Shown one piece after another: positions 31,542 through 55,657 of a DNA stretch of 64,000 nucleotides (position 1 is the first letter of the stretch; the number at the start of each line of letters is the position of its first letter). The DNA comes from Aequorivita viscosa (GTDB lineage: Bacteria; Bacteroidota; Bacteroidia; Flavobacteriales; Flavobacteriaceae). The notes beneath the pieces were generated by a model. That model did not search any database. It was not told the origin of the DNA and saw nothing but the letters and a program-made list of their open reading frames with translations. The stretch covers positions 1 through 64,000 of the forward strand of contig NZ_FNNS01000010.1 in assembly GCF_900106795.1 (NCBI RefSeq). Reading direction: 5' to 3'. The translations under genes were made by a program, and so were the position numbers.

Positions 31542-31563
31542 AAATATGATTTTTGTCATATTT
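31542..31563 (+). promoter_or_regulatory. Crp/Fnr-type operator of the norC-like promoter
   Basis: AAATATGA (31542-31549), spacer TTTTTG, TCATATTT (31556-31563): perfect 8-bp arms with TGA-N6-TCA spacing. Its centre (31552.5) is 36.5 bp upstream of the last base of the -7 box TATTTTTA (31582-31589), so it falls near -41.5 from the expected start. Three other promoters in this window have the same geometry. Confidence 0.75.
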
Positions 31564-31581
31564 CACCTTCAATTTCAGTAG

Positions 31582-31589
31582 TATTTTTA
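31582..31589 (+). promoter_or_regulatory. -7-like box of the norC-norB-like operon
   Basis: TATTTTTA, one base off TAnnTTTG, 22 bp before ATG 31612. A weak -7 box fits activation by a factor bound at -41.5. Confidence 0.5.
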
Positions 31590-31611
31590 GCGGCAATTAA
31601 TTAATTCTTTA

Positions 31612-32040
31612 ATGCCTGTCAATTCAAAGCCTTACCTGTATGCAATAGCGTTTTTGCTAGTAACTTTTGGGTTGTACAACTATGTTGTGTACACTACGGA
31701 AAGTTATATTGCCGTCGAGAAATTATCTCCACAAGCTGTAAAGGGGCAGCAATTGTTTCAAAGTAATCGTTGTTGGTCTTGCCATCAACTCTATGGTTTA
31801 GGTGGTTATTTGGGACCTGACCTTACTAATGTGTTTTCTGATGAAAAGAAGGGACCGCTGTACATTAAAGCATTTTTGAACAGTGGCGTGAAGAGTATGC
31901 CTCAGTTTAACTTTAATGAAGAAGAAAAGGAGGCTATTGTAGCCTATTTAAAACAAGTAGATGAAACAGGAATTTATCCTAACTACGATGCCAAAATAGA
32001 AGCTACTGGCTGGGTAAAATTAAAGTATCGAAATGAATAG
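31612..32040 (+). CDS. norC: NorC-like membrane-anchored cytochrome c
   Basis: 142 residues. One N-terminal membrane helix (about 8-26), then a monohaem cytochrome c domain with CWSCH (haem site), LGGYLGPDLTNV, and KSMPQFNFNEEEKEAIVAYL, where the Met is the sixth haem ligand. The MPQFN segment and size match NorC of cytochrome c-dependent nitric oxide reductases. It passes electrons to the catalytic subunit, whose gene overlaps by 8 bp. A Crp/Fnr-type site lies upstream. Identity as NorC depends on the partner being a true NO reductase. Confidence 0.8.
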   Translation: MPVNSKPYLYAIAFLLVTFGLYNYVVYTTESYIAVEKLSPQAVKGQQLFQSNRCWSCHQLYGLGGYLGPDLTNVFSDEKKGPLYIKAFLNSGVKSMPQFNFNEEEKEAIVAYLKQVDETGIYPNYDAKIEATGWVKLKYRNE

Positions 32041-33364
32041 TAAAATGCCCATCTATTTTTTAGTATTTGCCATTATCTCGCTTGTTTTGGGAATGTGCTT
32101 TGGAATGACTGCTTCTTTTCAATACGTGATGCCTGAGTTTTTAAAGGATTATTTTCCTTTTTCAAAACTGCGACCTTTTCACGCTACATCTGTAATAGCT
32201 TGGATTATCCTTGCCGCAACAGGGAGTATCTATTTCTTTCTTACCTACGTTGAAAAGTTCAAGTTGTTTTCGCCCGTACTGGGCAAATTGCACTTTATCA
32301 TTTTCCTTTTAACAGGAACAGCCATTTATTATTCCTATACATTCGATTATACCGAAGGGCGGGAATATTTCGCCTTTCCATCTTTTTTGATGATCCCAAT
32401 TTTAATTGGTTGGATTTTGTTCGGTATTAATTACTTCAAAACACTTTATCAAAATATGCGGGGATGGCCCGTTTACTATTGGATGTGGGGTACAGGGATA
32501 GCTTTTATGACATATCACTTAATGGAAGCTCATTTTTGGCTATTCGACTTTTTTAGACTGGATTTTATAAAAGATTTCTCTGTTCAATGGAAATCTACAG
32601 GTTCTTTTACGGGTTCGTGGAATATGTTGGTGTACGGAATCTCTATCTATTTAATGTCCAAAATAAAATCTGATACCAATGTGGCTACCAATAAAGTTGC
32701 GTTTTTCTTCTACTTTTTAGGGCTTACCAACTTAATGTTTGGGTGGGCGCACCACACGTACCTCGTGCCAACACAGCCTTGGATTAGGTATGTGGCTTAC
32801 GGAATTAGTATGACGGAGTGGATAGTTTTGGCATCTATTATTTATAATTGGAAACGTTCAGTTTTAAAGGTTGAAAAAGAAAACCACCCAATGGCATACC
32901 GTTTTTTATTGGCTACAGACCTCTGGGTTTTCCTCAATATAATCTTGGCGTTGTTGTTTTCTATTCCGGCAATTAATTATTTTACACACGGTACGCATAT
33001 TACAGTGGCGCACTCAATGGGAACAACTATTGGCATCAATACAACCATTCTTTTTTCGGCATTGTTTTTTATTATCCATCATTTATATCCACAATATAAC
33101 ACTGACAGAAAGTGGGTGAAGCGTGGCTTTATTGCGTTTAATATTAGTCTATTCCTTTTTTGTGCTTCCTTGTTTGCAGCGGGCGTTAAAAGGAGTTATT
33201 GGATGTATGTTACCAAAGTGGGGGCTTTTTCAGAAATGGAAGAATCAATGGTTATTTATTACATATCGTTCTTCATCTTCGGAATCGGAATTTTCATCTC
33301 TCTTGTAACCGTGGTGTTTCCAATATTTAAAATGCTGCTGCTAAAATTGAAACCAGGAAAATGA
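32033..33364 (+). CDS. norB: NorB-like haem-copper-type catalytic subunit (probable NO reductase)
   Basis: 443 residues with 12 membrane helices. Haem and metal ligands can be placed: His in RPFHATSVIAW (low-spin haem b), His in MEAHFWL and His-His in GWAHHTYL (the three non-haem metal ligands), Glu in SMTEWI, and His in ITVAHSMG (active-site haem). Compared from memory with Pseudomonas NorB, two positions differ: the second low-spin haem ligand is Met (AHSM in place of AHGH), and the active-site Glu after HLW is not acidic (HFWLF). This makes it a divergent NO reductase subunit rather than a canonical cNOR. It forms an operon with the NorC-like gene. Confidence 0.75.
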   Translation: MNSKMPIYFLVFAIISLVLGMCFGMTASFQYVMPEFLKDYFPFSKLRPFHATSVIAWIILAATGSIYFFLTYVEKFKLFSPVLGKLHFIIFLLTGTAIYYSYTFDYTEGREYFAFPSFLMIPILIGWILFGINYFKTLYQNMRGWPVYYWMWGTGIAFMTYHLMEAHFWLFDFFRLDFIKDFSVQWKSTGSFTGSWNMLVYGISIYLMSKIKSDTNVATNKVAFFFYFLGLTNLMFGWAHHTYLVPTQPWIRYVAYGISMTEWIVLASIIYNWKRSVLKVEKENHPMAYRFLLATDLWVFLNIILALLFSIPAINYFTHGTHITVAHSMGTTIGINTTILFSALFFIIHHLYPQYNTDRKWVKRGFIAFNISLFLFCASLFAAGVKRSYWMYVTKVGAFSEMEESMVIYYISFFIFGIGIFISLVTVVFPIFKMLLLKLKPGK

Positions 33365-33410
33365 GGTTTTAGCTATGATTAATATCATTTTAAACCACTT
33401 CTGTTAAACT

Positions 33411-33418
33411 TAACTTTG
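33411..33418 (+). promoter_or_regulatory. -7 box TAACTTTG for nadAB
   Basis: Exact TAnnTTTG match, 12 bp before ATG 33431, so nadAB has its own promoter separate from norCB. The TTG at 33416, within the box, is not the start. Confidence 0.6.
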
Positions 33419-33430
33419 AATTCTCTAAAA

Positions 33431-34378
33431 ATGAAGCCGAATACAATGACAATGACCTTAGCTGAGAAGATTACAGCGCTTAAAAAAGAAAAAAATGCAG
33501 TTATTTTAGCGCACTATTATCAGGTGCCTGAAATTCAGGAAGTAGCTGACTACGTGGGTGATAGTTTGGGATTATCGCAAAAAGCAGCAGAAACCGATGC
33601 CGATATAATTGTTTTTGCAGGTGTACATTTTATGGCCGAAACTGCTAAAATATTGAACCCGAACAAGAAAGTTTTGTTGCCAGATTTACTAGCAGGTTGT
33701 TCCTTGGCCGATTCGTGCCCACCAGATAAGTTTGGAGAATTGGTAGCCGCCCACCCAGACCATACAGTAATTACTTATGTGAACTGCTCTGCAGAAGTTA
33801 AAGCCTTGAGTGATATAATTTGTACTTCGTCGAATGCTGAGAAAATCGTGAACTCCATTCCAAAAGACGTCCCGATTATTTTTGCACCCGATAAAAACTT
33901 GGGGAAATATATTCAAAAGAAAACAGGTAGAAAGATGTTGCTTTGGGATGGTGCTTGTATTGTTCACGAGGCTTTTTCCATCGAGAAACTTTTGAAACTC
34001 TATCAAGAGCATCCCGACTCTGTCATTATTGCACATCCTGAATCGGAAGCACATATTTTGGAAACTGCGACTTATATAGGCTCTACTGCTGGAATGATAG
34101 ATTACGTAAAAAAGAATCCTTCAAAAAAATTCATTGTTGCTACCGAAGCTGGGATTCTGCACAAGATGCAACAGGAAGTACCTGAAGCGGTGCTAATTCC
34201 TGCACCAGCGGAAGAAGACAACACCTGTGCTTGTAGTGAATGTGCTTTTATGAAAATGAACACGTTGCAAAAGCTTTACGACTGTTTGCTGCACGAAACT
34301 CCACATATAGAAGTTTCGGAGGAGGTACGAAAAAAAGCTATTGTCCCCATTGAGCGTATGCTAGAATTATCGAAATAA
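33431..34378 (+). CDS. nadA: Quinolinate synthase
   Basis: 315 residues from ATG 33431 (a second ATG at 33446 is possible). NadA motifs: [40 protein letters not shown] with the first cluster Cys, [11 protein letters not shown], and the C-terminal [12 protein letters not shown] carrying the last Cys. It binds a 4Fe-4S cluster and makes quinolinate from iminoaspartate and dihydroxyacetone phosphate. The stop overlaps the nadB start by one base. This cluster is a known target of NO damage, which may explain its place next to NO-detoxifying genes (inference). Confidence 0.95.
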
Positions 34379-35934
34379 TGATGGAAACCAATTTTTTGAT
34401 TATCGGTTCTGGTGCTGCGGGGTTAACACTTGCGGTGAAACTTGCGGAGAAATTTCCAAAGAAAAAAATTACGGTTGTTACCAAAGCCCATCAATCAGAA
34501 TCTAACACCAAATATGCCCAAGGCGGTGTGGCGGCAGTTTTCGATTTGAAAGAAGATTCATTTCAAAAGCATATTGAAGACACTTTAATCGCTGGCGACG
34601 GGCTTTGCGATAAGAAAGTTGTGGAAATGGTAATCAAAGAAGGACCACTTAGGTTAAGGGAATTAATGAGTTGGGGTGCTAATTTTGACACCAACGCAGA
34701 TGGCGAACTTACATTGGGGAAGGAGGGAGGCCATTCAAAATTTAGGGTTATTCACCATAAAGACACTACTGGAAATGAAATTGAACGCGCCCTTTTGGCA
34801 CGCACAGACCAGTTGCAAAATATTACAATCCTTCCCCATCATTTTGCGATAGATTTAATCACGGAGCATCATTTTCCTGAATTGAAAACCGAAGAAATTT
34901 CTTGTTACGGGACTTATGTTCTAGACCAAATATCAGGAAGTATCTTCGCAATAAAAGCCGATTGTACCACATTGGCTTCGGGGGGGATGGGGCAAGTTTA
35001 TGGCCATACCACCAATCCTGCGGTGGCTACGGGCGATGGAATTGCAATGGCGTATCGCGCGAAGGCCCGTATTGAAAACATGGAGTTTATACAATTTCAT
35101 CCCACAGCTTTTTACGATGGAAAAAATCAATCTTCATTTTTAATTTCTGAAGCGGTGCGTGGTTTTGGAGCTTTTCTTCGGAATAAAAAGGGCGAAAGAT
35201 TTGTGTTGGATTATGACGCTCGAGGCGAATTGGCTTCACGCGATATCGTTTCGCGAGCGATCGATTCCGAAATGAAAAAATCAGGTGAAGAATGCGTTTT
35301 CCTAGATTGCACACATCTGGAGATTCAAGAGCTGAAGATACATTTCCCCAATATTTACGAAACCTGTTTAAAAAATAATATTGATTTAGAAGAAGATTGG
35401 ATTCCTGTAGTGCCAGCCTCGCATTATTTGTGTGGTGGTGTGGTGGTGGATATTGATGGTAAAACGTCGTTAAAAAATCTTTTTGCGTGTGGGGAATGTT
35501 CCCACACAGGGTTACATGGTGCCAATAGGCTAGCTTCCAACTCGTTGCTGGAGGCGTTGGTTTATGCAGACCGAATTTTTAAATACATTAGTAAGAACCT
35601 ACCTTTGCGAACGACTATATCAATTGCTGAATGGAATGAAAGCGGTGTAGAGATGTTAAAAAGCTCGGAAATTCTTCAGCAGAAAACGGTTGAACTACAA
35701 CAATTAATGCGACGATTTGCAGGCGTTGTAAGAAATAATAAAGATTTGAAGGAAGCTTCAATCAGATTGGAAGGTTTGTATGCAGAAACTGAAGATTTAT
35801 ACCAAAAGCACAAACTGAACACCTCATTATGTCAGCTTCGAAATATGGTTAATGTGGCGCATTTGATAATTCAGCAATCCTTGGTTAGAAAAGAAAATCG
35901 TGGGGGATATTTTAATGAAGATTACAATCAATAA
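34378..35934 (+). CDS. nadB: L-aspartate oxidase
   Basis: 518 residues. FAD-binding opening FLIIGSGAAGLTLAVKLAE, NTKYAQGGVAAVF, KEGGHSKFRVIHHKDTTGNEI, substrate loop EFIQFHPTAFY and SEAVRGFGAFL, and HYLCGGVVVDIDGKTSLKNL. It oxidises aspartate to iminoaspartate with fumarate or oxygen as acceptor, and passes it to NadA. It starts at ATG 34378 overlapping nadA by one base, a coupled pair. Confidence 0.95.
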   Translation: MMETNFLIIGSGAAGLTLAVKLAEKFPKKKITVVTKAHQSESNTKYAQGGVAAVFDLKEDSFQKHIEDTLIAGDGLCDKKVVEMVIKEGPLRLRELMSWGANFDTNADGELTLGKEGGHSKFRVIHHKDTTGNEIERALLARTDQLQNITILPHHFAIDLITEHHFPELKTEEISCYGTYVLDQISGSIFAIKADCTTLASGGMGQVYGHTTNPAVATGDGIAMAYRAKARIENMEFIQFHPTAFYDGKNQSSFLISEAVRGFGAFLRNKKGERFVLDYDARGELASRDIVSRAIDSEMKKSGEECVFLDCTHLEIQELKIHFPNIYETCLKNNIDLEEDWIPVVPASHYLCGGVVVDIDGKTSLKNLFACGECSHTGLHGANRLASNSLLEALVYADRIFKYISKNLPLRTTISIAEWNESGVEMLKSSEILQQKTVELQQLMRRFAGVVRNNKDLKEASIRLEGLYAETEDLYQKHKLNTSLCQLRNMVNVAHLIIQQSLVRKENRGGYFNEDYNQ

Positions 35935-36024
35935 ACTAAAAATGAATTTAAAAGAATAGGACGAAATACACATAGCTGTCTTTCATATATATTCAATCAA
36001 TTATAAAAATTATAAAAGAAAAAA

Positions 36025-36624
36025 ATGAAGACCTTGATAGAACAATCAGTTCAAAAAGCAATGGATTACACTCAATACAATTTGCTTTTTAAACAATTAG
36101 TTGAAGAAGAAAAATCTACTGGCGAGCATTCGCAAATGAAAGTTGATTACACAAAACTGAATTTTAGTCGTACCAAAAGGTTGGACAAAACGGCTAAAGT
36201 TTCAGATGAAGCTATGAAGGTTTTCAAAAACGTTTCAGAAAAGCAAACTTGGCTTGTAATTAGTGAACCGTGGTGTGGCGATGCAGCTCAGACGCTTCCA
36301 TATTTAAACAAGATAGCGCAACACTCAGATAACATCGATTTAAAAATCGTACTTCGTGATGAAAATCTAGATTTGATGAATCAGTTTCTAACCAATGGGT
36401 CACAGTCAATTCCTATAATTATTATGCTAGATGAAGCTATGAATGTGCTTCAAACCTTTGGACCACGTTCCAAAGCAGCGACAAAATTGGTAACAGATTA
36501 CAAAAAAGAACACGGAGTAATTGACGATGCCTTTAAAGAGATATTGCAGGTTTGGTATAATAATGATAAAGGGGTTTCTGTTGTGAATGATATTATGGAA
36601 ACAATACAAATACCATCAAATTAA
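36025..36624 (+). CDS. Thioredoxin-fold protein with single active-site Cys
   Basis: 199 residues. A helical N-terminal region (1-80) is followed by a thioredoxin fold: WLVISEPWCGDAAQTLPYLN, DLKIVLRDENLDLM, and the cis-Pro loop SQSIPIIIMLDEAM. The active site is WCGD, so only the first Cys is present, as in a family of thioredoxin-like proteins common in Flavobacteriia and Bacillota. Activity may be redox or chaperone-like. It stands alone after nadB, with about 90 bp on each side. Confidence 0.8.
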   Translation: MKTLIEQSVQKAMDYTQYNLLFKQLVEEEKSTGEHSQMKVDYTKLNFSRTKRLDKTAKVSDEAMKVFKNVSEKQTWLVISEPWCGDAAQTLPYLNKIAQHSDNIDLKIVLRDENLDLMNQFLTNGSQSIPIIIMLDEAMNVLQTFGPRSKAATKLVTDYKKEHGVIDDAFKEILQVWYNNDKGVSVVNDIMETIQIPSN

Positions 36625-36719
36625 TAACCAATGTGAATACAGGATGCATCGGATATCCCCCTGAATACAAATAATTTAAAATTTATTTCGTATTTTCAAT
36701 TTCTGATTTGGTAATTGAA

Positions 36720-37277
36720 ATGTCCGATAAATTCAGAAATAGATATCGAATTGCATCCACCCGCCTACAAAATTGGGATTATGGTTGGAACGCGATGTAT
36801 TTTGTAACCATTTGCACGAAAAATAGAATTTGTTTTTTCGGGGATATTCGTAGAGATGCGATGCATCGCGTGTCCACAAAAATGCAATTATCCCAAATTG
36901 GTAAAATTGCGGACACCGAATGGCTGAAAACCTTTGTATTACGACCAGACATGAATTTGGAAATGGGCGAATATATTGTAATGCCGAATCATTTTCATGC
37001 CGTAATTGGCATTGGCAGTAATGAATATAATTCCAATCACGCCAAAACGAAACAACCAGTAAACCAATTTGGTCCACAATCAAAAAATTTGGCATCTATA
37101 ATTCGTGGTTTCAAATCTGCCGTAACAGTGAATGCCCGTAAAATTGATTCCAATTTTGGATGGCAATCCCGGTTTCACGATCACGTAATCCGCAATCAAG
37201 GATCGTTTGATAGAATCCAATCCTATATTATAAACAATCCATTAAATTGGAAAAATGATTCATTTTACAAAAAATGA
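36720..37277 (+). CDS. REP-associated tyrosine transposase (RAYT)
   Basis: 185 residues from ATG 36720. The Y1/HUH-type fold has WNAMYFVTICTKNR, then HUH motif in YIVMPNHFHAVIGI, and GWQSRFHDHVIRN with a catalytic Tyr expected in RIQSYIINNPLNW, the standard RAYT layout. These enzymes cut and move REP palindromes. Between residues about 44 and 55 (RRDAMHRVSTK) the coding DNA is itself a near copy of the palindrome found just downstream (36850-36877 against 37357-37384). The protein has no IS-type partner; it is likely a domesticated or resident element. Confidence 0.85.
   Translation: MSDKFRNRYRIASTRLQNWDYGWNAMYFVTICTKNRICFFGDIRRDAMHRVSTKMQLSQIGKIADTEWLKTFVLRPDMNLEMGEYIVMPNHFHAVIGIGSNEYNSNHAKTKQPVNQFGPQSKNLASIIRGFKSAVTVNARKIDSNFGWQSRFHDHVIRNQGSFDRIQSYIINNPLNWKNDSFYKK
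36850..36877. repeat. REP-like palindrome embedded in the RAYT reading frame
   Basis: Left half GTAGAGATGCGATG and right half CATCGCGTGTCCAC. It matches the palindrome at 37357-37384 at 25 of 28 bases. It is in frame and codes for RRDAMHRVST inside the transposase, where related enzymes have a variable loop. Confidence 0.8.
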
Positions 37278-37356
37278 TGATTTTTTTAATATTGTATAAC
37301 AAAAACATTTTAGGGGTATTGGATATTGGATGCGGTGATTTTGGCCGTTGGTAATG

Positions 37357-37384
37357 GTAGAGACGCGATGCATCGCGTCTCTAC
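37357..37384. repeat. REP palindrome downstream of RAYT
   Basis: A 28-bp perfect palindrome: GTAGAGACGCGATG (37357-37370) and CATCGCGTCTCTAC (37371-37384). It stands 80 bp after the RAYT stop codon, the normal position for the repeats such enzymes mobilise. Confidence 0.85.
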
Positions 37385-37388
37385 AGGG

Positions 37389-37418
37389 CATCGTGGTTCA
37401 AACCATCGTGGTTCAAAC
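37389..37418. repeat. Tandem 15-bp direct repeat beside the REP palindrome
   Basis: CATCGTGGTTCAAAC occurs twice without a gap, 4 bp after the palindrome. It may be a duplication made during REP movement. Confidence 0.75.
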
Positions 37419-37499
37419 CGCCCATATTTCCAAATAATCTGACCGATATCATTTATAAAACCTGATGATTTATCAACCTTTGTATAAAAATCATATTCC

Positions 37500-38768
37500 A
37501 TGCAAATTGTATCTGCTCAAGAGGCTGTATCTATAGTAAAATCAAATGATCGTGTGTTTTTTCAGGGTGCCGCAATGACACCTAATTTATTGATAGACAC
37601 GTTATGCGAAAGATATCGCGAACTTAAAAATGTTGAAATAGTTCATATTCATACGCATGGTGATGCAAAATACACTTACGCCCCGTATACCGATGCATTT
37701 CACTTAGCCAGTTGTTTTGTGGGCGATAATGTTCGGAAGGGTGTAGATACAATTCACGGCGATTATATTCCAGTTTTTTTAAGTGAAATCCATTGGTTGT
37801 TTAGAAGAAACATAATGCCTTTGGATGTCGCATTTATCCAAGTTTCGCCACCAGACAAGCATGGGTATTGTTCTTTAGGGCTTTCAGTTGATGTTACATT
37901 ACCTGCAATTCAAACAGCTAAACACGTCGTAGCTTTGGTTAATCCAAATGTACCAAGAACTCATGGAGATGGTATTATCCATATAAAAAGCATTGATTAT
38001 GGTGTGGAAATCGATACGCCAATTTATCAAGCCCCGGTAGGCGAACCGTCAAAAGTTGAAGCTATAATTGGTAAAAATGTAGCCGAATTGGTAGAAGATG
38101 GCGCAACACTTCAAATGGGGATTGGCAATATTCCCAACGCAGTTTTACACAACTTAATGAATCATAAAAGGCTTGGAATTCATACAGAAATGTTTAGTGA
38201 TGGGATTCTCCCATTAGTTGAAAAAGGAATTATTACGGGTGAAGAAAAGGAAATTAAGACTGGAAAAATAGTGACTTGTTTCGCAATGGGTACTAAGAAG
38301 TTATACGATTTTATTGATGACAACCCAAACATTCATTTTAAAGAGGCAGCATATACCAATGACACGGCAATTATTAGACGAAACCCTAAGGTAACGGCCA
38401 TTAACAGTGCAATTGAAATAGATTTAACTGGTCAAGTTTGTGCAGATAGTATAGGGATGTATCAATATTCGGGAGTAGGGGGACAGATGGATTTTATACG
38501 TGGTGCATCACTTTCAGAAGGCGGAAAACCAATTATTGCAATGCCTTCAGTTACCAATAAGGGTATTTCCAAAATAACACCTTTTTTGAAGGAGGGCGCA
38601 AGTGTTACGACTACTAGAGCGCATGTTCATTACGTTGCAACGGAATACGGTGTGGTAAACCTTTTCGGAAAAGGAATAGAGCAAAGGGCAAAGGAACTTA
38701 TTTCTATCGCACACCCCGACCATCGTGAAGCATTAGAAAGGGAAGCTAGAAAGCGATTTAATAAGTGA
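37500..38768 (+). CDS. Acetyl-CoA hydrolase/transferase family protein (CoA-transferase)
   Basis: 422 residues. Two-domain CoA-transferase fold: FQGAAMTPNLLIDTL, VSPPDKHGYCSLGLSVD, then TLQMGIGNIPNAVL, the catalytic Glu in HTEMFSDGILPLVEKG, GVGGQMDFIRGASLSEGGKP and ATEYGVVNLFGKG. This subgroup includes 4-hydroxybutyrate and succinyl-CoA:acetate CoA-transferases. The exact acid is not determined. A single gene between the RAYT region and the Rrf2 regulators, with no obvious link to NO metabolism. Confidence 0.88.
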   Translation: MQIVSAQEAVSIVKSNDRVFFQGAAMTPNLLIDTLCERYRELKNVEIVHIHTHGDAKYTYAPYTDAFHLASCFVGDNVRKGVDTIHGDYIPVFLSEIHWLFRRNIMPLDVAFIQVSPPDKHGYCSLGLSVDVTLPAIQTAKHVVALVNPNVPRTHGDGIIHIKSIDYGVEIDTPIYQAPVGEPSKVEAIIGKNVAELVEDGATLQMGIGNIPNAVLHNLMNHKRLGIHTEMFSDGILPLVEKGIITGEEKEIKTGKIVTCFAMGTKKLYDFIDDNPNIHFKEAAYTNDTAIIRRNPKVTAINSAIEIDLTGQVCADSIGMYQYSGVGGQMDFIRGASLSEGGKPIIAMPSVTNKGISKITPFLKEGASVTTTRAHVHYVATEYGVVNLFGKGIEQRAKELISIAHPDHREALEREARKRFNK

Positions 38769-38834
38769 TTCTTAATCGAACCTTTACTATTTTAATTTTA
38801 GAACCAATTTTTCGTTAAAATATTTAAGAAAACT

Positions 38835-38848
38835 TTAATTTGAATTAA
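38835..38848. promoter_or_regulatory. Palindrome over the -33 region of the first Rrf2 gene
   Basis: TTAATT-TG-AATTAA, perfect 6-bp arms, covering the -33 TTTG (38839-38842). The location suits self-repression, but A/T palindromes are common in this genome. Confidence 0.35.
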
Positions 38849-38868
38849 GGCTTGTTTATTTACTTTTG
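38839..38868 (+). promoter_or_regulatory. Promoter of the first Rrf2 gene
   Basis: -33 TTTG (38839-38842), 18-bp spacer, -7 TACTTTTG (38861-38868), near the Bacteroidota consensus TTTG-N19-TAnnTTTG. ATG 38884 follows 15 bp later. The upstream TTG at 38866 is inside the -7 box. Confidence 0.6.
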
Positions 38869-38883
38869 AAGAAAAGTAAATGT

Positions 38884-39312
38884 ATGTTTTCAAAAGCCTG
38901 TGAGTATGGTATTAGAGCCGTGCTATTTATAGCAAAAGAATCTCAGAACGATAAAAGACCTAATATCGCACAAATTTCTAAAGCAGTTGATTCCCCTGTT
39001 CCATTTACGGCTAAAATTTGTCAAGAACTTGCGAGGGCTGGAGTTATATTGTCAAAAAAAGGGCCTAATGGCGGTTTTTATCTCGAAAAAGATTCCAAAT
39101 TAAAACTTATAGATATTGTTGCAGCAATCGATGGCAAAGGCATTTTCACGGGATGCTGCTTAGGGTTGCAAGCTTGTTCGTCTCTTCATCCGTGCCCAGT
39201 TCACGATCAATATGAAGATATACGTGGCAATTTAAAACGAATGTGTGAGAATACAAATGTTCTAGATCTTGCTTTAGATTTAAATGAAGGCGGGACTTTC
39301 TTGAAAATCTAA
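38884..39312 (+). CDS. Rrf2-family transcriptional regulator
   Basis: 142 residues from ATG 38884. Winged helix: FSKACEYGIRAVLFIAKES, SKAVDSPVPFTAKICQELARAGVI, KKGPNGGFYL. The Cys cluster is GCCLGLQACSSLHPCPVHDQY, with C-x6-C-x5-C spacing, fit to hold an iron-sulfur cluster as in NsrR and IscR. The cluster would lose DNA affinity when hit by NO or by iron loss. With a close paralog 100 bp downstream and hemerythrin and RIC genes following, a role as NO or iron-sulfur sensor is likely (inference). Confidence 0.87.
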   Translation: MFSKACEYGIRAVLFIAKESQNDKRPNIAQISKAVDSPVPFTAKICQELARAGVILSKKGPNGGFYLEKDSKLKLIDIVAAIDGKGIFTGCCLGLQACSSLHPCPVHDQYEDIRGNLKRMCENTNVLDLALDLNEGGTFLKI

Positions 39313-39351
39313 TAATTGTTATTTACATTTATGTTTCAGTAAGCGCAAATA

Positions 39352-39375
39352 ATTTCTGACAATTTTATCAGAAAT
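39352..39375. promoter_or_regulatory. Dyad operator (NO/Fe-S type) before the second Rrf2 gene
   Basis: ATTTCTGA-N8-TCAGAAAT with perfect 8-bp arms, centred about 25 bp upstream of the -7 box, so it covers the -33 element. The inner sequence reads TTCTGACAATTTTATCAGAA. A nearly identical dyad lies at 40893-40914 before ric. Repression by one of the two Rrf2 proteins is the simplest reading. Confidence 0.65.
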
Positions 39376-39387
39376 TAGAATTATTGC

Positions 39388-39395
39388 TATATTTG
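39388..39395 (+). promoter_or_regulatory. -7 box TATATTTG for the second Rrf2 gene
   Basis: Exact TAnnTTTG match, 17 bp before ATG 39413. Confidence 0.6.
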
Positions 39396-39412
39396 TGCAA
39401 GATTTTTAAAGT

Positions 39413-39847
39413 ATGTTCTCTAAAGCGTGTCAGTACGGAATTAAAGCTTCGGTTTATATAGCCTCGCAATCGGCTATTGGAATTCGAACAAGTTTAAAAG
39501 ATATCGCATTTAACATTAATTCTCCAGAAGCTTTTACGGCTAAAATCTTACATCAATTAGCAAAGCAAAATATTTTAGAATCTTTGAAAGGGCCAACGGG
39601 AGGTTTTGAAATTCCGAAAGGTAGTGCGGAGAGTATTAAATTGGCTCATATTGTTTCCGCAATAGATGGAGATTCTATTTATAACGGCTGTGCACTTGGT
39701 TTTGATAACTGCGACGCCCGTCAGCCTTGCCCAATGCACGATAAATTTGTCGATATTAGAGATAATTTAAAAGAAATGCTAGAGAATACCAGTCTTTTGG
39801 AATTGGCGAATGGAGTAGATGTTGGCTTGTCATTTTTAAAACGATAA
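39413..39847 (+). CDS. Rrf2-family transcriptional regulator (second copy)
   Basis: 144 residues, paralogous to the gene just upstream. FSKACQYGIKASVYIASQS at the start, then SPEAFTAKILHQLAKQNILE and KGPTGGFEIPKG for the winged helix, and NGCALGFDNCDARQPCPMHDKF with three Cys at C-x6-C-x5-C spacing. Two tandem Rrf2 genes with the same Cys layout suggest two related sensors. Its own promoter carries a dyad operator; a partial copy of that dyad follows the stop at 39863. Confidence 0.87.
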   Translation: MFSKACQYGIKASVYIASQSAIGIRTSLKDIAFNINSPEAFTAKILHQLAKQNILESLKGPTGGFEIPKGSAESIKLAHIVSAIDGDSIYNGCALGFDNCDARQPCPMHDKFVDIRDNLKEMLENTSLLELANGVDVGLSFLKR

Positions 39848-39862
39848 CTTTTTTTATAGTTA

Positions 39863-39883
39863 TTTCTGATAAAAATGTAATAA
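39863..39883. promoter_or_regulatory. Degenerate copy of the Rrf2-type dyad
   Basis: TTTCTGATAAAAATGTAATAA matches the dyad seen at 40893-40914 at about 16 of 20 bases (left half exact, right half weak). It lies 16 bp after the Rrf2 stop and 200 bp before the next gene. Function doubtful. Confidence 0.3.
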
Positions 39884-40068
39884 TTTAAAACTGAAGGTTG
39901 ATACTTTACTTAGGTAGTTGCGGGGGAGTGTTCAAGAGAACGTAATAACTAGGAAAGGGTATACAAGAGGACTGATGTGAGTCAATAAAATAATATAGAA
40001 AACCTTGGCAGTCTTCTTTAGTCGAGCCCTTTAAAACAGTACTATTCTGTTAAGATAAAACTAAATTG

Positions 40069-40076
40069 TATTTTTG
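40069..40076 (+). promoter_or_regulatory. -7 box TATTTTTG for the zinc-ribbon/hemerythrin pair
   Basis: Exact TAnnTTTG match, 12 bp before ATG 40089. The TTG at 40074 inside it is not a start. Confidence 0.55.
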
Positions 40077-40088
40077 AATTTGAAGCTT

Positions 40089-40382
40089 ATGAGCTTTTTA
40101 GAGCGTTTGTTTGGAATTTTTAAATCAAAACCAGAAGTTCAGCCTAAAATAACGGATGAAAAAGAAGGTTGTGCTTTTTGCTGGGGATATCAGGAATATG
40201 ATTCACAATCGCGAACAGCGAACCACGATAAGCAAATAGATGTTAAAAATCATCGAGATAAACACGTGAAAGTTGGAAAGTTTATGGTGGAACATGTAGA
40301 AGGTTTTAAAAATAAGAAGAGAATAATAATGCGTTGCCCAAAATGTGGTGGAAAACGCATTAAATATAAAGAAAAGTCATAA
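40089..40382 (+). CDS. Small zinc-ribbon-like protein of unknown function
   Basis: 97 residues from ATG 40089. It has two Cys pairs, CAFCWGY near residue 28 and CPKCGGKR near residue 87, able to bind zinc as a split ribbon. The middle is basic and polar (NHDKQIDVKNHRDKHVKVGK) with several His. No named family is recognised. It is 6 bp upstream of a hemerythrin gene and shares its promoter, so it belongs to the NO/iron-handling set by context only. Confidence 0.65.
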   Translation: MSFLERLFGIFKSKPEVQPKITDEKEGCAFCWGYQEYDSQSRTANHDKQIDVKNHRDKHVKVGKFMVEHVEGFKNKKRIIMRCPKCGGKRIKYKEKS

Positions 40383-40388
40383 TTAGAT

Positions 40389-40856
40389 ATGGAAGTACAT
40401 AAGCCTATTAAACGACATAAAGCATTGCAACCACTCAGCCGGCAACATCATTTTGGGTTGCTTTTTGGTTGGAAAATCAGAAAGGGATTTGCTAAAAATA
40501 TTGCTCCCGAACGGATGATGAAATACGCCAGTTGGTTTTATTCACACGAAATCGAACCTCATTTTAATGATGAAGAGAAGTACCTTTTCCCCATACTCGA
40601 TCCAAGTCATGAATTAATTGAACGCGCCCTTAAGGAACACCGAAGATTAAAACGCCTGTTTTTAGATACAGCACATCCAGAAAAATCGCTTCATCGGTTA
40701 GAGGAAGAGTTAGATGCCCATATTCGTTTTGAAGAACGTATTTTATTTAACGAAATTCAGAAAGTAGCAACTCAAGAGCAATTAGATAAAATTGAGGAAA
40801 TTCATTCAGATATTGAAAAAGCTCCTGATTACGAAGATCCATTTTGGGATGAATAG
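40389..40856 (+). CDS. Hemerythrin-domain protein
   Basis: 155 residues. The di-iron ligands of the four-helix bundle are visible: PLSRQHHFGLLFGW (first His), FYSHEIEPHFNDEEKYLF (His and Glu), LKEHRRLKRL (His) and LDAHIRFEERILFNEI (His and Glu). Such proteins bind oxygen, NO or iron in the cytoplasm. It is a different branch from the RIC protein downstream, lacking the N-terminal ScdA part. Co-transcribed with the small zinc-ribbon gene. Confidence 0.85.
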   Translation: MEVHKPIKRHKALQPLSRQHHFGLLFGWKIRKGFAKNIAPERMMKYASWFYSHEIEPHFNDEEKYLFPILDPSHELIERALKEHRRLKRLFLDTAHPEKSLHRLEEELDAHIRFEERILFNEIQKVATQEQLDKIEEIHSDIEKAPDYEDPFWDE

Positions 40857-40892
40857 ACGATGCTAAGCATTTCTAAATCAAGCTTATTATAA

Positions 40893-40914
40893 ATTCTGAT
40901 AAATTTGTCAGAAT
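40893..40914. promoter_or_regulatory. Dyad operator (Rrf2-type) before ric
   Basis: ATTCTGA-N8-TCAGAAT. Its reverse complement contains TTCTGACAAATTTATCAGAA, one base different from the dyad before the second Rrf2 gene. It lies directly upstream of, and abuts, the Crp/Fnr-type site at 40912-40931. Confidence 0.65.
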
Positions 40915-40931
40915 ATGATTTAAGTCATATT
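40912..40931 (+). promoter_or_regulatory. Crp/Fnr-type operator of the ric promoter
   Basis: AATATGA, spacer TTTAAG, TCATATT: perfect 7-bp arms. Centre 40921.5, exactly 36.5 bp upstream of the last base of the -7 box, the same arrangement as at norC-like, ccoI and ccoS. Confidence 0.75.
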
Positions 40932-40950
40932 CTATTAGTGTTTTAAATAA

Positions 40951-40958
40951 GACCTTTG
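40951..40958 (+). promoter_or_regulatory. -7-like box of ric
   Basis: GACCTTTG keeps the TTTG but not the TA of TAnnTTTG, so it is a weak box that would need an activator. ATG 41001 follows 42 bp later. Confidence 0.45.
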
Positions 40959-41000
40959 TGTCGTAATAAAGAAATTGTTTCATATAAAAATATTGTTAAG

Positions 41001-41726
41001 ATGACTACACTACAAGAAAGAACGGTAGCCGATGTTGTAACCGAAAACATTAAAGCTGCACATATTTTCAAAAAATACGGAATAGATTTTTGCTGTGGCG
41101 GAGGAGTTAGTATTACCCGCGCTTGCGAAAAAGCCAAAATAGATCCTACGATTTTAATTGAAGAATTACAAAATCTGAATACAGCGCCTGATCGTGCTTT
41201 TGATTTTAACAGTTGGAAACTTGATTTTCTAACAGATCATATTCTGAACGTACACCATCAATATGTGGAAGAAAGTAGTCCGCTATTATTGCAATACGCT
41301 AAAAGAGTAAACCACGTACATGGTCATCATTACACCGAATTAAATGAAATAGAAGAACTGGTCATTAAACTGGTTCAGGCTATGGCTGCTCATCAACGTA
41401 AGGAGGAACTAATTCTTTTTCCTTTTATCAAAAAACTTGTTAAAGCGGAAGCTGAAGGAACTGAGGTGCCTGCTACACACTTTGGATCGGTTGAAAACCC
41501 AATTCATATGATGGAAGAAGAGCACGAAGAGGCAGGCGATTTTTTAAAGCGTATTTCTGAATTGAGTAGTGGTTTTACACCACCGCAAGGAGCTTGTAAC
41601 ACCTATAGAGCCTTTTATGCCAAACTGGATGAGTTTGAACAAGATTTGCACCAACATATTCATTTAGAAAATAATATTCTTTTCCCAAAAGCCTTGAAGC
41701 TTGAAAAGACTTTACAAAAAAAGTAA
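41001..41726 (+). CDS. ric: RIC protein, iron-sulfur cluster repair (ScdA/YtfE/DnrN)
   Basis: 241 residues from ATG 41001. The N-terminal ScdA_N domain has TVADVVTENIKAAHIFKKYGI-DFCCGGG with the paired Cys, and a hemerythrin domain follows with HHQYVEE, HGHHYTELNEIEE, AHQRKEELILFPF, MEEEHEEAGDFL and HQHIHLENNILFPKAL. It is a di-iron protein that repairs iron-sulfur centres hurt by NO or oxidants. Its promoter carries both types of dyad operator found in this region. A terminator follows. Confidence 0.93.
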   Translation: MTTLQERTVADVVTENIKAAHIFKKYGIDFCCGGGVSITRACEKAKIDPTILIEELQNLNTAPDRAFDFNSWKLDFLTDHILNVHHQYVEESSPLLLQYAKRVNHVHGHHYTELNEIEELVIKLVQAMAAHQRKEELILFPFIKKLVKAEAEGTEVPATHFGSVENPIHMMEEEHEEAGDFLKRISELSSGFTPPQGACNTYRAFYAKLDEFEQDLHQHIHLENNILFPKALKLEKTLQKK

Positions 41727-41781
41727 ACCAAAATTCTATATATAATCCCCAGTTTTTTTTACATTTTGATTGGTTTTTTGG

Positions 41782-41828
41782 CAGTCCGGAAGAAGTACAG
41801 TTTTTATTGTACTATCCCGGACTGTTTT
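41782..41828 (+). terminator. Terminator between ric and the membrane protein gene
   Basis: CAGTCCGG (41782-41789) pairs with CCGGACTG (41817-41824), with an inner GTACA/TGTAC pairing. T-rich sequence follows. Confidence 0.7.
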
Positions 41829-41830
41829 TC

Positions 41831-41838
41831 TAATTTTG
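41831..41838 (+). promoter_or_regulatory. -7 box TAATTTTG just before the GTG of the membrane protein gene
   Basis: Exact TAnnTTTG match. The expected transcription start (about 5 bp past the box) falls at or just inside the GTG start codon at 41843, which would give a leaderless mRNA. Confidence 0.45.
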
Positions 41839-41842
41839 ATGG

Positions 41843-43057
41843 GTGATAAATCTTAAGAAACATATAGGTGTTGCGCTTTTCTACTTTTTGTTGGTAGCGT
41901 TAATGGGAGTCTTATTGCGATTATATGTAATAACCTCACTTCCTTTTAATTATAAGTTTTTATTACACGCACATTCGCACACAGCATTGCTAGGTTGGAT
42001 TTATTTGGGGCTAACAACCTTAGTATATAAATGCTTTCTAGAGTCGGCCGAAAAGCCAAAACTGTACAAGCGTATATTTTACTTTACCAATATTTGTATC
42101 GTTGGAATGTTAATAACCTTTCCTATTCAAGGGTATGCGCTGTATTCCATCATTTTTTCTACACTTTTCCTATTTGCATCTTATTGGTTTGCCTGGTTTG
42201 CAATAAAACACATACCTGCGCATTTCAAAAAACGATTTTCCTGGAAATTGATAAAAACCTCAATTTGGTATTTGGTTATTTCGAGTATCGGGCCGTGGGC
42301 TATTGGCGGCGTGATGTCTACACTGGGATCAACATCAATTTGGTATAAAACTTCCATCTATTTTTACCTCCATTTTCAATATAATGGTTGGTTTATTCTA
42401 GCGCTTCTAGGCTTGTTGTTCTTTATCTTTGAAGAAAGAGGAGTACAGTTTAATTCGCAAAAATTGAAATCTATTGTTTTTCTTTTGAATTTTGGAATTA
42501 TATTCACTTTTTTTCTTTCGGTGCTGTGGTTTCAGCCTCCAAAGATTTTTTATGTACTCGGCGGAATTGGGGCTATAGCACAACTGCTCGCTTTTGGTGA
42601 TTTATACTTTCTTCTACAAAACCAATTTTCATTTATTAAAGAAAAATTTGATGAAAAGTCGTTGCTTCTTTTAAAAATAGCTTCTATCTTGATGGTAATC
42701 AAGCTAATTATGCAGTTATTCTCAGCGCATTCGTACTTTGCAAAATTAGCATTCCGACTTCCTGATTTTGTAATTGGGTATCTGCATCTAGTATTTTTAG
42801 GAATTGTTGTTACTACAATGCTAGCTTTTTTGAAATATTTTAAATTACTTCATTTACCCAAAAGTTTTGTTTGGATTTTTCTGATAGCTTTTTTCACAAC
42901 CGAAGCTTTAATATTTTATAAAGCAACAGCTATATGGCTCGGACTTCCTTTCTTATCAGGATACTACAATTTTCTAACTGTTTTAAGTTGTCTTTTTCCA
43001 GTCGCCGTTGGAGTTTTATTTTTTAAACAGGTTAAAAGTCTTTATCTTTCTGCCTAA
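41843..43057 (+). CDS. Polytopic membrane protein resembling haem-copper oxidase subunit I / NnrS
   Basis: 404 residues from GTG 41843 with about 12 membrane helices. His-rich segments sit at the helix positions expected for haem or metal ligands: FLLHAHSHTALLGWIYLGL in helix 2, YFYLHFQYNGWFIL near the middle and VIGYLHLVFLGIVV later. This His pattern recalls haem-copper oxidase subunit I and the NO-response protein NnrS, but sequence similarity is loose and the HH metal pair is missing. It lies between ric and the ccoI gene, so a role in NO sensing, haem or oxidase biogenesis is plausible. Family assignment is uncertain. Confidence 0.7.
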   Translation: MINLKKHIGVALFYFLLVALMGVLLRLYVITSLPFNYKFLLHAHSHTALLGWIYLGLTTLVYKCFLESAEKPKLYKRIFYFTNICIVGMLITFPIQGYALYSIIFSTLFLFASYWFAWFAIKHIPAHFKKRFSWKLIKTSIWYLVISSIGPWAIGGVMSTLGSTSIWYKTSIYFYLHFQYNGWFILALLGLLFFIFEERGVQFNSQKLKSIVFLLNFGIIFTFFLSVLWFQPPKIFYVLGGIGAIAQLLAFGDLYFLLQNQFSFIKEKFDEKSLLLLKIASILMVIKLIMQLFSAHSYFAKLAFRLPDFVIGYLHLVFLGIVVTTMLAFLKYFKLLHLPKSFVWIFLIAFFTTEALIFYKATAIWLGLPFLSGYYNFLTVLSCLFPVAVGVLFFKQVKSLYLSA

Positions 43058-43108
43058 ACTGTTTAAGTTTAAAACTTATTTTCTAGTGCTTAATTAGGTT
43101 GTAAAAGC

Positions 43109-43120
43109 TGATAATTATCA
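43109..43120 (+). promoter_or_regulatory. Crp/Fnr-type operator of the ccoI promoter
   Basis: TGATAATTATCA, a 12-bp perfect palindrome close to the Fnr consensus TTGAT-N4-ATCAA. Centre 43114.5, exactly 36.5 bp upstream of the last base of the -7 box. Confidence 0.7.
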
Positions 43121-43143
43121 TTAGAAATTTAGGTAGGTATTGC

Positions 43144-43151
43144 AATATTTG
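43144..43151 (+). promoter_or_regulatory. -7-like box of ccoI
   Basis: AATATTTG, one base off TAnnTTTG, 11 bp before ATG 43163. Confidence 0.45.
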
Positions 43152-43162
43152 CAACTGGTTTA

Positions 43163-45592
43163 ATGAGCAAATTTTTGAAGATGGTAAACTGTTTCCATTG
43201 TGGAGATGCGTGTATAGATGTTGAGATTAAACACGATGAAAAGTCTTTTTGCTGCCATGGCTGCAAAACGGTTTATGATATTCTGCACGATAATGATTTA
43301 AGCTATTATTACGATTTAGAAAAAACACCAGGTATTTCTCCTCAAGAAATTGCTGGTAAGTATGATTTTCTAGATAATGAAGCTATCGTTGAAAAACTAT
43401 TGGAATTTAATGATGGAAATCTCCAAATTGTCTCATTTGTAATTCCTTCAATTCATTGTAGTAGTTGTATTTGGATTCTTGAAAACCTTAATAAACTGAA
43501 TCCTTCAGTTAAATCTTCTCAGGTTAATTTCCCAGAAAAAACGGTTCGAATTACGTTCACAGGACAAGACGATTCCTTGAAAAATCTTGTTGTTCTTTTA
43601 AGTCGAATAGGGTATGAGCCTTATATATCGCTGGATGATTCAGATAAAAAAGATAAAAATGTAGATCGCAGCTTAATTTACAAATTGACAATTGCCGGAT
43701 TCGCGTTTGGAAACATAATGTTCCTGTCGCTTCCAGAGTATTTTGAAGGTTCTGAGTTTTGGTTAGATCAATTTAAGCCATTTTTTCGTTGGTTAATGTT
43801 TGCGTTTTCGCTTCCAGTTGTTTTTTATTCGGCAAGTGGATATTTCACTTCAGCTTACAAAGGGCTCAGGTCAAAAATTTTAAATATTGATGTTCCTATT
43901 GCTTTAGGGGTTGCAGTGCTTTTTATAAGAAGTACAATAGACATTGTTATGGACTGGGGAACCGGTTTTTTTGACAGTTTAGCAGGGCTTCTTTTCTTTT
44001 TGCTCCTCGGAAAATTCTTTCAACAAAAAACATACAGCTATCTTTCATTTGAACGTGATTACAAATCGTACTTCCCAATTGCTGTTACACGACTATTTAA
44101 AAATGCAGAAGGAAAAACAATTGAAGAACAAGCTGAGGTTTATACCGTTAAAAAAGGCGATCGACTATTAATTCGGAATAACGAAATCATCCCCGTTGAT
44201 GCTATTCTTATTAAAGGGAACGCGCTTATTGATTATAGTTTTGTAACTGGAGAGGCGGAACCAATTTCCAAGCAAAGCGGTGATAAACTTTTTGCTGGAG
44301 GGAAACAGCAAGGAGGAATAGTTGAAGTAGAAGTATTAAAACCCGTTTCTCAGAGTTATTTAACCCAACTTTGGAGTAACGACGTATTCAGTAAAGATCA
44401 TTCAGGCATTTTCGAATCGCTAACGGATAGTATTAGTAAGCGCTTTACGGTTACGCTTCTTACCATTGCGTTTGTTTCAACTATTTTTTGGCTGGTTGTA
44501 GACCCTTCAAAGGCGTTTAACGTGTTTACAGCAGTTTTGATTGTAGCCTGTCCGTGTGCCATTGCCTTAGCAGCACCTTTTACTTTGGGGAATGTTTTGC
44601 GAATCTTTGGAAGAGAAAATCTTTACTTAAAGGAAGCTTCGGTTATAGAACAAATGGCAAATTTAGATACAGTGGTTTTTGATAAAACGGGAACACTCAC
44701 TACAAATCAGAAAAACTTGATTACTTATGAAGGTGTAGCACTTTCAACAGAAGAAAAACAATTACTTACAAGTACCCTTCGAGCTTCAAGTCACCCGTTA
44801 AGTCGCTCCCTGTACAGTATCTTAGATAAAAATGACATTCAGACTTTAGATGATTTTGAAGAAGAAGTTGGAAAGGGGATTTCTGCTAGATTTAATCAAA
44901 ATTCTATAAAAGTAGGGTCCTATGAATTTGTTGGATACGCAAATGAAACCGATGTAGAATTAAAAAATAAAACAACTGTACACATTAGCACAAACAAGAA
45001 TTATAAAGGTTGTTATGTTTTTAATAGTGAATATAGAAGTGGTGTTGCCCAGGTTTTTGAAGAATTGGGAGCATCTAAGGAAGTTATAGTTTTATCTGGC
45101 GACAATGAAGGTGAACGTGAAAAATTGGAGGCTATGCTTCCAAAAGGTGTGAATTTGTATTTTAACCAAAAACCAGACGACAAACTTAATTTTATTAAAT
45201 CATTGCAACAGCAAGGCAAACGGGTTTTAATGATCGGTGATGGTTTGAATGATGCTGGAGCGCTAAAACAGAGCGATGTAGGCTTTGTTATTTCGGAAAA
45301 CACCAATGTGTTTTCTCCAGCTTGTGATGGGATTTTGGATGCGTCAAAGTTTACTAAAATTGCAGACTTTTTGAGCTTTTCACAACAAGGGGTAAAGATA
45401 ATTAAATGGGCGTTTGTACTATCCTTGTTTTATAATTTAATAGGAATTACATTTGCAGTTACAGGGCATTTACGTCCTGTGGTTGCTGCAATTTTAATGC
45501 CTTTAAGTTCCATAAGTATTGTGATTTTTACTACCGTTGCAACACAATATATTGGCAAGAAATTAAGAATGAATATAAATAAGGGAACTTGA
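43163..45592 (+). CDS. ccoI: Copper-exporting P-type ATPase for cbb3 oxidase maturation
   Basis: 809 residues. N-terminal Cys-rich metal domain (NCFHCGDACIDVEI, FCCHGCKTVYDIL), a second metal motif HCSSCIWILENL, then the P1B core: TGEAEPISKQ, CPC motif ACPCAIALAAPF in helix 6, phosphorylation DKTGTLTTN, and MIGDGLNDAGAL. This is the CcoI/CtpA-type heavy-metal ATPase that supplies copper for the oxidase. It precedes ccoS and ccoNO as in most cbb3 clusters. An Fnr-like palindrome stands at -41.5. Its stop TGA overlaps the next operator. Confidence 0.93.
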   Translation: MSKFLKMVNCFHCGDACIDVEIKHDEKSFCCHGCKTVYDILHDNDLSYYYDLEKTPGISPQEIAGKYDFLDNEAIVEKLLEFNDGNLQIVSFVIPSIHCSSCIWILENLNKLNPSVKSSQVNFPEKTVRITFTGQDDSLKNLVVLLSRIGYEPYISLDDSDKKDKNVDRSLIYKLTIAGFAFGNIMFLSLPEYFEGSEFWLDQFKPFFRWLMFAFSLPVVFYSASGYFTSAYKGLRSKILNIDVPIALGVAVLFIRSTIDIVMDWGTGFFDSLAGLLFFLLLGKFFQQKTYSYLSFERDYKSYFPIAVTRLFKNAEGKTIEEQAEVYTVKKGDRLLIRNNEIIPVDAILIKGNALIDYSFVTGEAEPISKQSGDKLFAGGKQQGGIVEVEVLKPVSQSYLTQLWSNDVFSKDHSGIFESLTDSISKRFTVTLLTIAFVSTIFWLVVDPSKAFNVFTAVLIVACPCAIALAAPFTLGNVLRIFGRENLYLKEASVIEQMANLDTVVFDKTGTLTTNQKNLITYEGVALSTEEKQLLTSTLRASSHPLSRSLYSILDKNDIQTLDDFEEEVGKGISARFNQNSIKVGSYEFVGYANETDVELKNKTTVHISTNKNYKGCYVFNSEYRSGVAQVFEELGASKEVIVLSGDNEGEREKLEAMLPKGVNLYFNQKPDDKLNFIKSLQQQGKRVLMIGDGLNDAGALKQSDVGFVISENTNVFSPACDGILDASKFTKIADFLSFSQQGVKIIKWAFVLSLFYNLIGITFAVTGHLRPVVAAILMPLSSISIVIFTTVATQYIGKKLRMNINKGT

Positions 45593-45605
45593 TAAATGTC
45601 ATATT
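45588..45605 (+). promoter_or_regulatory. Crp/Fnr-type operator of the ccoS-ccoNOQP promoter
   Basis: CTTGA-TAAATG-TCATATTT: right half exact, left half weaker, TGA-N6-TCA spacing kept. Centre 45595.5 is exactly 36.5 bp upstream of the last base of the -7 box. It overlaps the stop codon of ccoI (45590-45592). Confidence 0.65.
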
Positions 45606-45624
45606 TTAAAGGCGTTTTCAACAA

Positions 45625-45632
45625 TATTTTTG
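45625..45632 (+). promoter_or_regulatory. -7 box TATTTTTG for the cco operon
   Basis: Exact TAnnTTTG match, 17 bp before ATG 45650. Confidence 0.6.
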
Positions 45633-53365: not shown

Positions 53366-53373
53366 ATCGAATT

Positions 53374-54141: not shown

Positions 54142-54152
54142 TGTATATAAGT

Positions 54153-55622: not shown

Positions 55623-55657
55623 AAGTCGAATTTTATAGGTTGGTTTTAATATAATAA

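Follow-up and report, generated by a model that had tools for sequence, protein, structure and literature searches.

The 64,000-nucleotide window studied here (positions 1 to 64,000 of contig NZ_FNNS01000010.1 of Aequorivita viscosa, RefSeq assembly GCF_900106795.1) contains six composite promoter sites, in each of which a TGA-N6-TCA dyad stands at one and the same distance from a -7-like box resembling TAnnTTTG. Judged from sequence, these are almost certainly class-II activator sites of a low-oxygen regulon, with the class-II distance measured to the -7 box. Their main activator in this Aequorivita is very likely a response regulator encoded elsewhere in the genome, in which a receiver (REC) domain is fused to a Crp/FNR-type DNA-binding part (the hybrid), and whose gene directly follows that of a soluble PAS histidine kinase. 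A FixL-like heme-PAS kinase acting through this REC-FNR protein on the class-II sites of a low-oxygen regulon is probably the best explanation of the findings taken as a whole. Oxygen perceived through heme would be the somewhat favored signal.

Composite Sites in the Window

A preliminary description of this DNA had reported four such dyads ahead of a norC-like gene, ric, ccoI and the ccoS-led oxidase genes. They lie where it placed them (Table 1), with centers at 31552.5, 40921.5, 43114.5 and 45595.5, each 36.5 bp from the last base of its -7-like box. The boxes deviate from TAnnTTTG by one base at TATTTTTA, GACCTTTG and AATATTTG and by none at TATTTTTG. When 30 offsets from 22.5 to 51.5 were scanned for the four sites, the mismatches added up to three at 36.5, and none of the remaining 29 offsets gave fewer than 11. 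Two further composite sites, overlooked in that description, precede nadA and a gene for an acetyl-CoA hydrolase-like protein.

Taken alone, dyads are not enriched in the window beyond chance: 26 were counted where 19.9 were expected, and 9 of 100 shuffles reached that count. For six of the 26, a box with no more than one mismatch stands at +36.5 (P = 5e-7 in one orientation, 3e-5 counting both), a probability that is partly circular because the offset was derived from four of those six; considered separately, the two new sites, drawn from the remaining 22 dyads, give P = 0.03. Independent proof of the pairing comes from loci outside the window: of 655 distinct TGAYN4RTCA dyads, 99 are followed by an exact box at a gap of 23, and no other gap between 5 and 49 accounts for more than three.

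Sites across the Genome

The preliminary description had proposed a genome-wide search with the dyad tied to the box. In the 3.54 Mb of the genome (62 contigs), TGAY-N4-RTCA-N23-TAnnTTTG occurs exactly ten times, and with one mismatch 24 times. Allowing up to two mismatches gave 180 matches against 145 for reversed controls, so that only the best matches are informative at this scale. Downstream of each of the ten exact sites, a gene begins within about 150 bp. Exact or one-mismatch sites (the latter inspected at all positions but C56:169417) precede genes for a MlaE permease, a hibernation factor followed by Usp, further Usp proteins, a TerB-like protein (named by reading), phosphofructokinase, a pyridine-nucleotide reductase, a radical-SAM HemN-like protein, formate-THF ligase, YceI, a CoA-ligase, a di-haem cytochrome c peroxidase, a cytochrome c before nosZ, phosphate acetyltransferase and an ATP-synthase-type subunit. 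These are genes of low-oxygen kinds, and the regulon also takes in fermentation, stress and nosZ genes. Upstream of the cytochrome c-nosZ cluster, three composite sites are packed within 155 bp (L248:2701-2855), two of them using one dyad (2813-2824) on opposite strands.

Conservation in Relatives

Conservation was counted in the best 80 of 348 relatives' loci retrieved with Ric, allowing up to two mismatches and taking genes with at least 150 bases upstream. The sites withstood this comparison with related Flavobacteriaceae, which had been suggested as a test: they recur at ccoN (20/20), ccoI (23/23), norC (8/8), the hydrolase gene (16/18) and ric (42/80). In Salinimicrobium and Salegentibacter (L045-L053), the ric dyad has a C before the second TCA, e.g., TGACTTGACTCA, a variant that all nine of these loci retain. 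The nadA site was found in 4 of 13 nadA loci, from Altibacter (L056, L060), Flagellimonas (L104) and Tenacibaculum (L106), and in none of the eight from the Aequorivita group, in which the norC promoter may serve nadA as well. No composite lies upstream of norB, nadB, hemerythrin, cox404, ccoP, ccoG, ccoH or tauE in the relatives' loci, and 12 alternative spacings were met there in zero to three loci each.

The longer form AATATGA-N6-TCATATT, said to be shared by two of the dyads, is indeed present at norC and ric and exact nowhere else in the genome, but it was found in none of the eight relatives' norC sites; the conserved core is TGAY-N4-RTCAT. A matrix of 244 sites gave the same core, with the promoter-near half better conserved and a T-rich stretch after the dyad. 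It showed no conserved TTG (the -33 element) in the 23-bp gap between dyad and box.

Across 199 genomes of the family, 1602 exact composites were counted against 35 reversed controls, and 184 genomes hold at least one. Among 148 genomes drawn from the phylum, further families belonging to the same class also show the pattern, with as many as 11 sites, and genomes outside that class have few (0-3 each). The proposal that nitric oxide reduction, iron-center repair and the microaerobic oxidase form one regulon is supported, except that the regulon is not particular to this organism.

A Kinase-Hybrid Operon as Candidate Regulator

A Crp/Fnr-type gene encoded elsewhere had been anticipated, and the genome has five Crp-type proteins. 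One of them is the hybrid, with its gene 4 bp from that of the PAS kinase; a single 20-kb contig around this operon carries three of the ten exact genome sites. In a second genome of the genus (G024), kinase, hybrid, hemN, nirK, cco, ric, nor and usp lie within 68 kb, together with 15 sites having at most one mismatch. The 30 best hybrid loci (4 kb each) contain exact sites in 28 cases, 49 sites against 0.27 expected at mean density, and all 30 contain a site when one mismatch is allowed.

The kinase PAS domain best matches FixL chains (E = 8e-15), and DosP was also matched. Its His67 and Arg87 align with FixL residues which we take to be the heme ligand and the oxygen contact, respectively. 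At the former position, 34 of 35 readable distinct rows have His and the remaining one, a divergent paralogue, has Tyr; at the latter, Arg is kept in 32 of 36. That paralogue, a divergent kinase-hybrid pair (L212:4401-6710) with Tyr in place of the heme-ligand His, probably responds to another signal. The phospho-acceptor Asp52 of the receiver and the H-box His of the kinase are present in 36 of 36 distinct rows each.

The Crp part of the hybrid is 30-34% identical to six stand-alone FNRs and 21-22% to the Crp-type proteins L002-L004; L003 and L004 (21% and 22%) were dropped as candidates because of that distance. A tree places hybrids and FNRs on separate sides of one branch (92/89). The recognition helix reads ATESLIR in 32 of 36 hybrids and ATESAIR in five of six FNRs (FNR-type E..xR), and this likeness would explain how hybrid and FNR could read a common site. 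The hybrid, with two Cys in all, is without the cysteine cluster of FNR proper. The regulator here is probably a two-component REC-FNR hybrid and not a one-component FNR.

Distribution of Hybrid and Stand-Alone FNR

Presence was scored at E <= 1e-40 for the hybrid and E <= 1e-35 for FNR, and the weak FNR matches of G033 (37%) and G108 (35%) were counted as no FNR. At these thresholds stand-alone FNR occurs in 132 of the 199 family genomes, alone in 70 and beside the hybrid in 62. Neither Aequorivita genome searched (G000, G024) has a stand-alone FNR at E <= 1e-35, and both are hybrid-only. Exact sites were counted for each of these groups: the median is 8 in the 39 genomes with the hybrid only (range 2-24), 11 in the 62 with both and 6 in the 70 with FNR only, with no siteless genome in any of these groups, and it is zero in the 28 genomes with neither regulator (15 without a site, at most five in any).

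Among 30 hand-picked genomes (15 hybrid-only, 15 FNR-only), 27 have a ccoN orthologue once the paralogues L219 and L247 (34% identity) are excluded, and the ccoN site is found in 11 of 12 hybrid-only and 14 of 15 FNR-only genomes; the three hybrid-only genomes without ccoN still hold 5, 3 and 3 sites. In G130, G146 and G105 the kinase-hybrid operon is divergent from ccoI, with a site in between, and a stand-alone FNR (N-terminus M(S/G)KCEQC) follows a usp gene, whereas in G169 and G122 FNR alone is divergent from ccoI. In all six FNR loci read (L208, L210-L214), the FNR gene is divergent from ccoI or within about 4 kb of it. In FNR-carrying genomes, the stand-alone FNR probably reads the same sites.

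A Model and Its Weak Points

Taken together, the observations are best read as follows, the Crp/Fnr-type, class-II regulation expected from the preliminary description being supported by the sequence comparisons. A fall in oxygen would activate the FixL-like heme-PAS kinase, which would phosphorylate Asp52 in the receiver of REC-FNR. The FNR-type domain might then bind the dyad as a dimer at about -41.5, in the place of a -33 element, and the bound protein could recruit RNA polymerase by class-II activation. The parts and their linkage are read directly in the sequence, and from them we infer every step of signal flow.

Several observations weigh against this model. The first base of the box deviates from TAnnTTTG at ric, ccoI and the hydrolase gene, and the nirK cluster of the window is without a composite site, whereas its G024 counterpart has one upstream (L199:5231-5273). 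At least seven of the 24 one-mismatch genome sites lie inside an open reading frame or without a gene start behind them (L122-L124, L126, L127, L134 and L137, probably chance matches). PAS domains with a His at the heme-ligand position are not always heme proteins. The genome counts that associate regulators with sites ignore relatedness, and the 28 neither-regulator genomes are also without a ccoN orthologue (27 with no match, one with a 34% match), so part of the association may reflect joint loss of regulator and targets. Two genomes, G121 and G174, hold five exact sites each despite having neither hybrid nor FNR at the thresholds used. L002 lies within the hybrid side of the tree, next to the divergent hybrid L212 and at the end of a very long branch, which leaves its distance in some doubt. 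Finally, L005, another Crp-type protein, stands in this genome within a gene row that begins at an exact site, behind mlaE and two further genes (L252:2305-5568), and may itself be a target of the regulon.

Alternative Regulators and Signals

That AT-rich motifs happen to pair at this spacing by chance could be argued from the chance-level number of dyads and the modest probability of the two new window sites, but the sharp spacing curve, the gene-by-gene conservation and the excess over reversed controls in the family refute it, and we give it practically no credit. Ownership of the dyads by the two tandem Rrf2 regulators is scarcely more credible. They do sit inside the cluster and belong to the Rrf2 family; yet the dyad geometry is that of Crp/Fnr, the composites are spread genome- and family-wide, and only 3 of 29 rrf2 loci have one upstream. 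Among the remaining Crp-type proteins, the nearly universal L005 (181 of 199 genomes) was rejected as the regulator: it is present in 16 genomes without hybrid or FNR, nine of them siteless, and its own loci hold an exact site in none of 20 cases and a one-mismatch site in four. Another candidate is L002 (C41:97525-98109), which might be the activator in Aequorivita, perhaps as a nitric oxide sensor, with the hybrid having another job. Its recognition helix is FNR-like, a truncated-haemoglobin-like gene (named by reading) is divergent to it, a single TGA-N6-TCA lies immediately ahead of its start, and its position in the tree speaks for it too. Nevertheless, it is only 21% identical to the Crp part of the hybrid, the loci of its orthologues have an exact composite in none of ten cases and a one-mismatch composite in three, and 24 hybrid-only genomes without an L002 orthologue still carry 2-24 sites. 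We consider this role for L002 very unlikely.

The nature of the signal is a less one-sided matter. The hybrid could be the activator and respond to nitric oxide or redox state instead of oxygen, since norCB, ric and nosZ are among the targets besides ccoNOQP and heme-PAS proteins are able to bind nitric oxide. However, ccoNOQP, ccoI, hemN, usp and hpf are targets of the oxygen type, and the nearest matches of the PAS domain, FixL and DosP, are both named as oxygen sensors. Nitric oxide or redox state as the signal is a doubtful reading, albeit one with a real share of the probability.

Comparison with Known Systems

Both class-II activation of the FNR type and sensing of the FixL type are well established. 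The system described here differs in that a receiver is fused to an FNR output, the dyad is tied to a promoter box of the Bacteroidota type, and regulators are exchanged while the sites stay constant. Promoters of the FNR/ANR/FixK type resemble those of this study in the class-II position near -41.5 and in targets that include ccoNOQP/fixNOQP, ccoI, hemN and usp. Their anaerobox in Pseudomonadota is given as TTGAT-N4-ATCAA in the portions of the source consulted (PMC7888657). The dyad spacing and core are alike; in contrast, the base before TGA is here mostly A or C and not T, and the dyad is tied to TAnnTTTG and not to a sigma-70 -10 element.

FixJ has an output of the LuxR type, unlike the cNMP_binding and HTH_Crp_2 output of the hybrid. 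In rhizobia, according to passages of the same source, FixL-FixJ-FixK or hFixL-FxkR-FixK cascades control the same oxidase (PMC7888657). As far as those passages go, the systems agree in having a FixL-like PAS kinase on top, a Crp/FNR-type protein at the bottom and a cbb3 oxidase as target, but here the receiver and the FNR-type DNA-binding part are fused, with one transcriptional step fewer. The stand-alone FNR of Flavobacteriaceae (L214:5706-6383 and relatives) shares the ccoN promoter sites and the recognition helix core with the hybrid. It differs in being a one-component regulator with an N-terminal CEQC (in the six read) that aligns with the cysteine region of a solved FNR.

Within Bacteroidota, HcpR2 of Bacteroides is likewise a Crp/FNR-family protein connected with nitrogen-oxide genes; the part of the source consulted gives its motif as GTAACnnnnGTTAC and a predicted regulon of only hcp in most Bacteroides (PMC1274295). 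For Crp/FNR homologues of a Flavobacteriales genome, carbon-sensing MalR-like roles have been predicted in the part consulted, which is a different proposal (PMC8510549). The term "CRP" was not found in the consulted portions of two signaling censuses (PMC4558063, PMC1183210). A search of the open-access PMC literature, covering titles and the openings of abstracts among the papers listed, found neither a Flavobacteriaceae FNR regulon nor a REC-Crp regulator of cbb3, and a description may already exist.

On balance we lean towards one promoter code with two interchangeable readers across Flavobacteriaceae, a one-component iron-sulfur FNR in some genera and a FixL-like kinase with REC-FNR in others, with both present in many. 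In hybrid-only genera including Aequorivita, FNR would have been wholly replaced and the FixL-FixJ-FixK cascade collapsed to one phosphorylation step, with the DNA code unchanged. The findings provide a sharp and testable low-oxygen regulon for a large marine family, joining nitric oxide and N2O reduction, cbb3 respiration, repair of nitric oxide damage and fermentation under one switch. The exchange of readers would also be a natural example of a sensor replaced while the DNA code stays constant, and the kinase-hybrid pair a predicted phosphorelay that senses oxygen and has an FNR-type domain as its output.

Genes and Sites

Table 1. Composite sites and genes of the window, and the candidate regulatory pair encoded elsewhere in the genome.
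Feature	Position	Strand	Dyad	-7 box	Conservation or basis
Composite site before norC-norB	31547..31589	+	31547-31558	31582-31589 TATTTTTA	8/8 norC loci
Composite site before nadA	33376..33418	+	33376-33387	33411-33418 TAACTTTG	4/13 nadA loci
Composite site before acetyl-CoA hydrolase-like gene	37440..37482	+	37440-37451	37475-37482 AACCTTTG	16/18 loci
Composite site before ric	40916..40958	+	40916-40927	40951-40958 GACCTTTG	42/80 ric loci, 15/16 closest
Composite site before ccoI	43109..43151	+	43109-43120	43144-43151 AATATTTG	23/23 loci
Composite site before ccoS-ccoNO	45590..45632	+	45590-45601	45625-45632 TATTTTTG	20/20 loci
norC-like cytochrome c	31612-32040	+			NO-reductase assignment by gene pair, size, family
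norB-like COX1-family protein	32033-33364	+			NO-reductase assignment by gene pair, size, family
nadA-nadB	33431..35934	+			NadA PF02445; nadB by reading of the open reading frame
Acetyl-CoA hydrolase/transferase family gene	37500..38768	+			PF13336, PF02550
Two tandem Rrf2-family regulators inside cluster	38866-39312, 39413-39847				cysteine-rich by reading
ric, iron-sulfur cluster repair di-iron protein	41001..41726	+			TIGR03652 above cut-off
ccoI-like heavy-metal P-type ATPase	43163..45592	+			only general P-type ATPase TIGR01494 above cut-off; ccoI by position and reading
ccoS	45650-45856	+			reading of the open reading frame
ccoNO	45870-48071	+			PRK14485, ccoN and ccoO models above cut-off
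ccoP	48378-49268	+			reading of the open reading frame
ccoG	49357-50778	+			reading of the open reading frame
ccoH	50906-51352	+			reading of the open reading frame
nirK-like gene (C-terminal cytochrome c), FGE-like, Sco-like cluster	52745-56935	-
Soluble PAS histidine kinase, directly ahead of hybrid	G000:C26:12432-13664
REC-Crp/FNR response regulator	G000:C26:13669-14712				receiver + cNMP_binding + HTH_Crp_2

The norC- and norB-like proteins reached the cut-off of no NCBIfam model. Between ric and ccoI, a 404-residue membrane-like protein (41843-43057) gave no Pfam or NCBIfam match, and relatives of it are present in 45 of the 80 loci.

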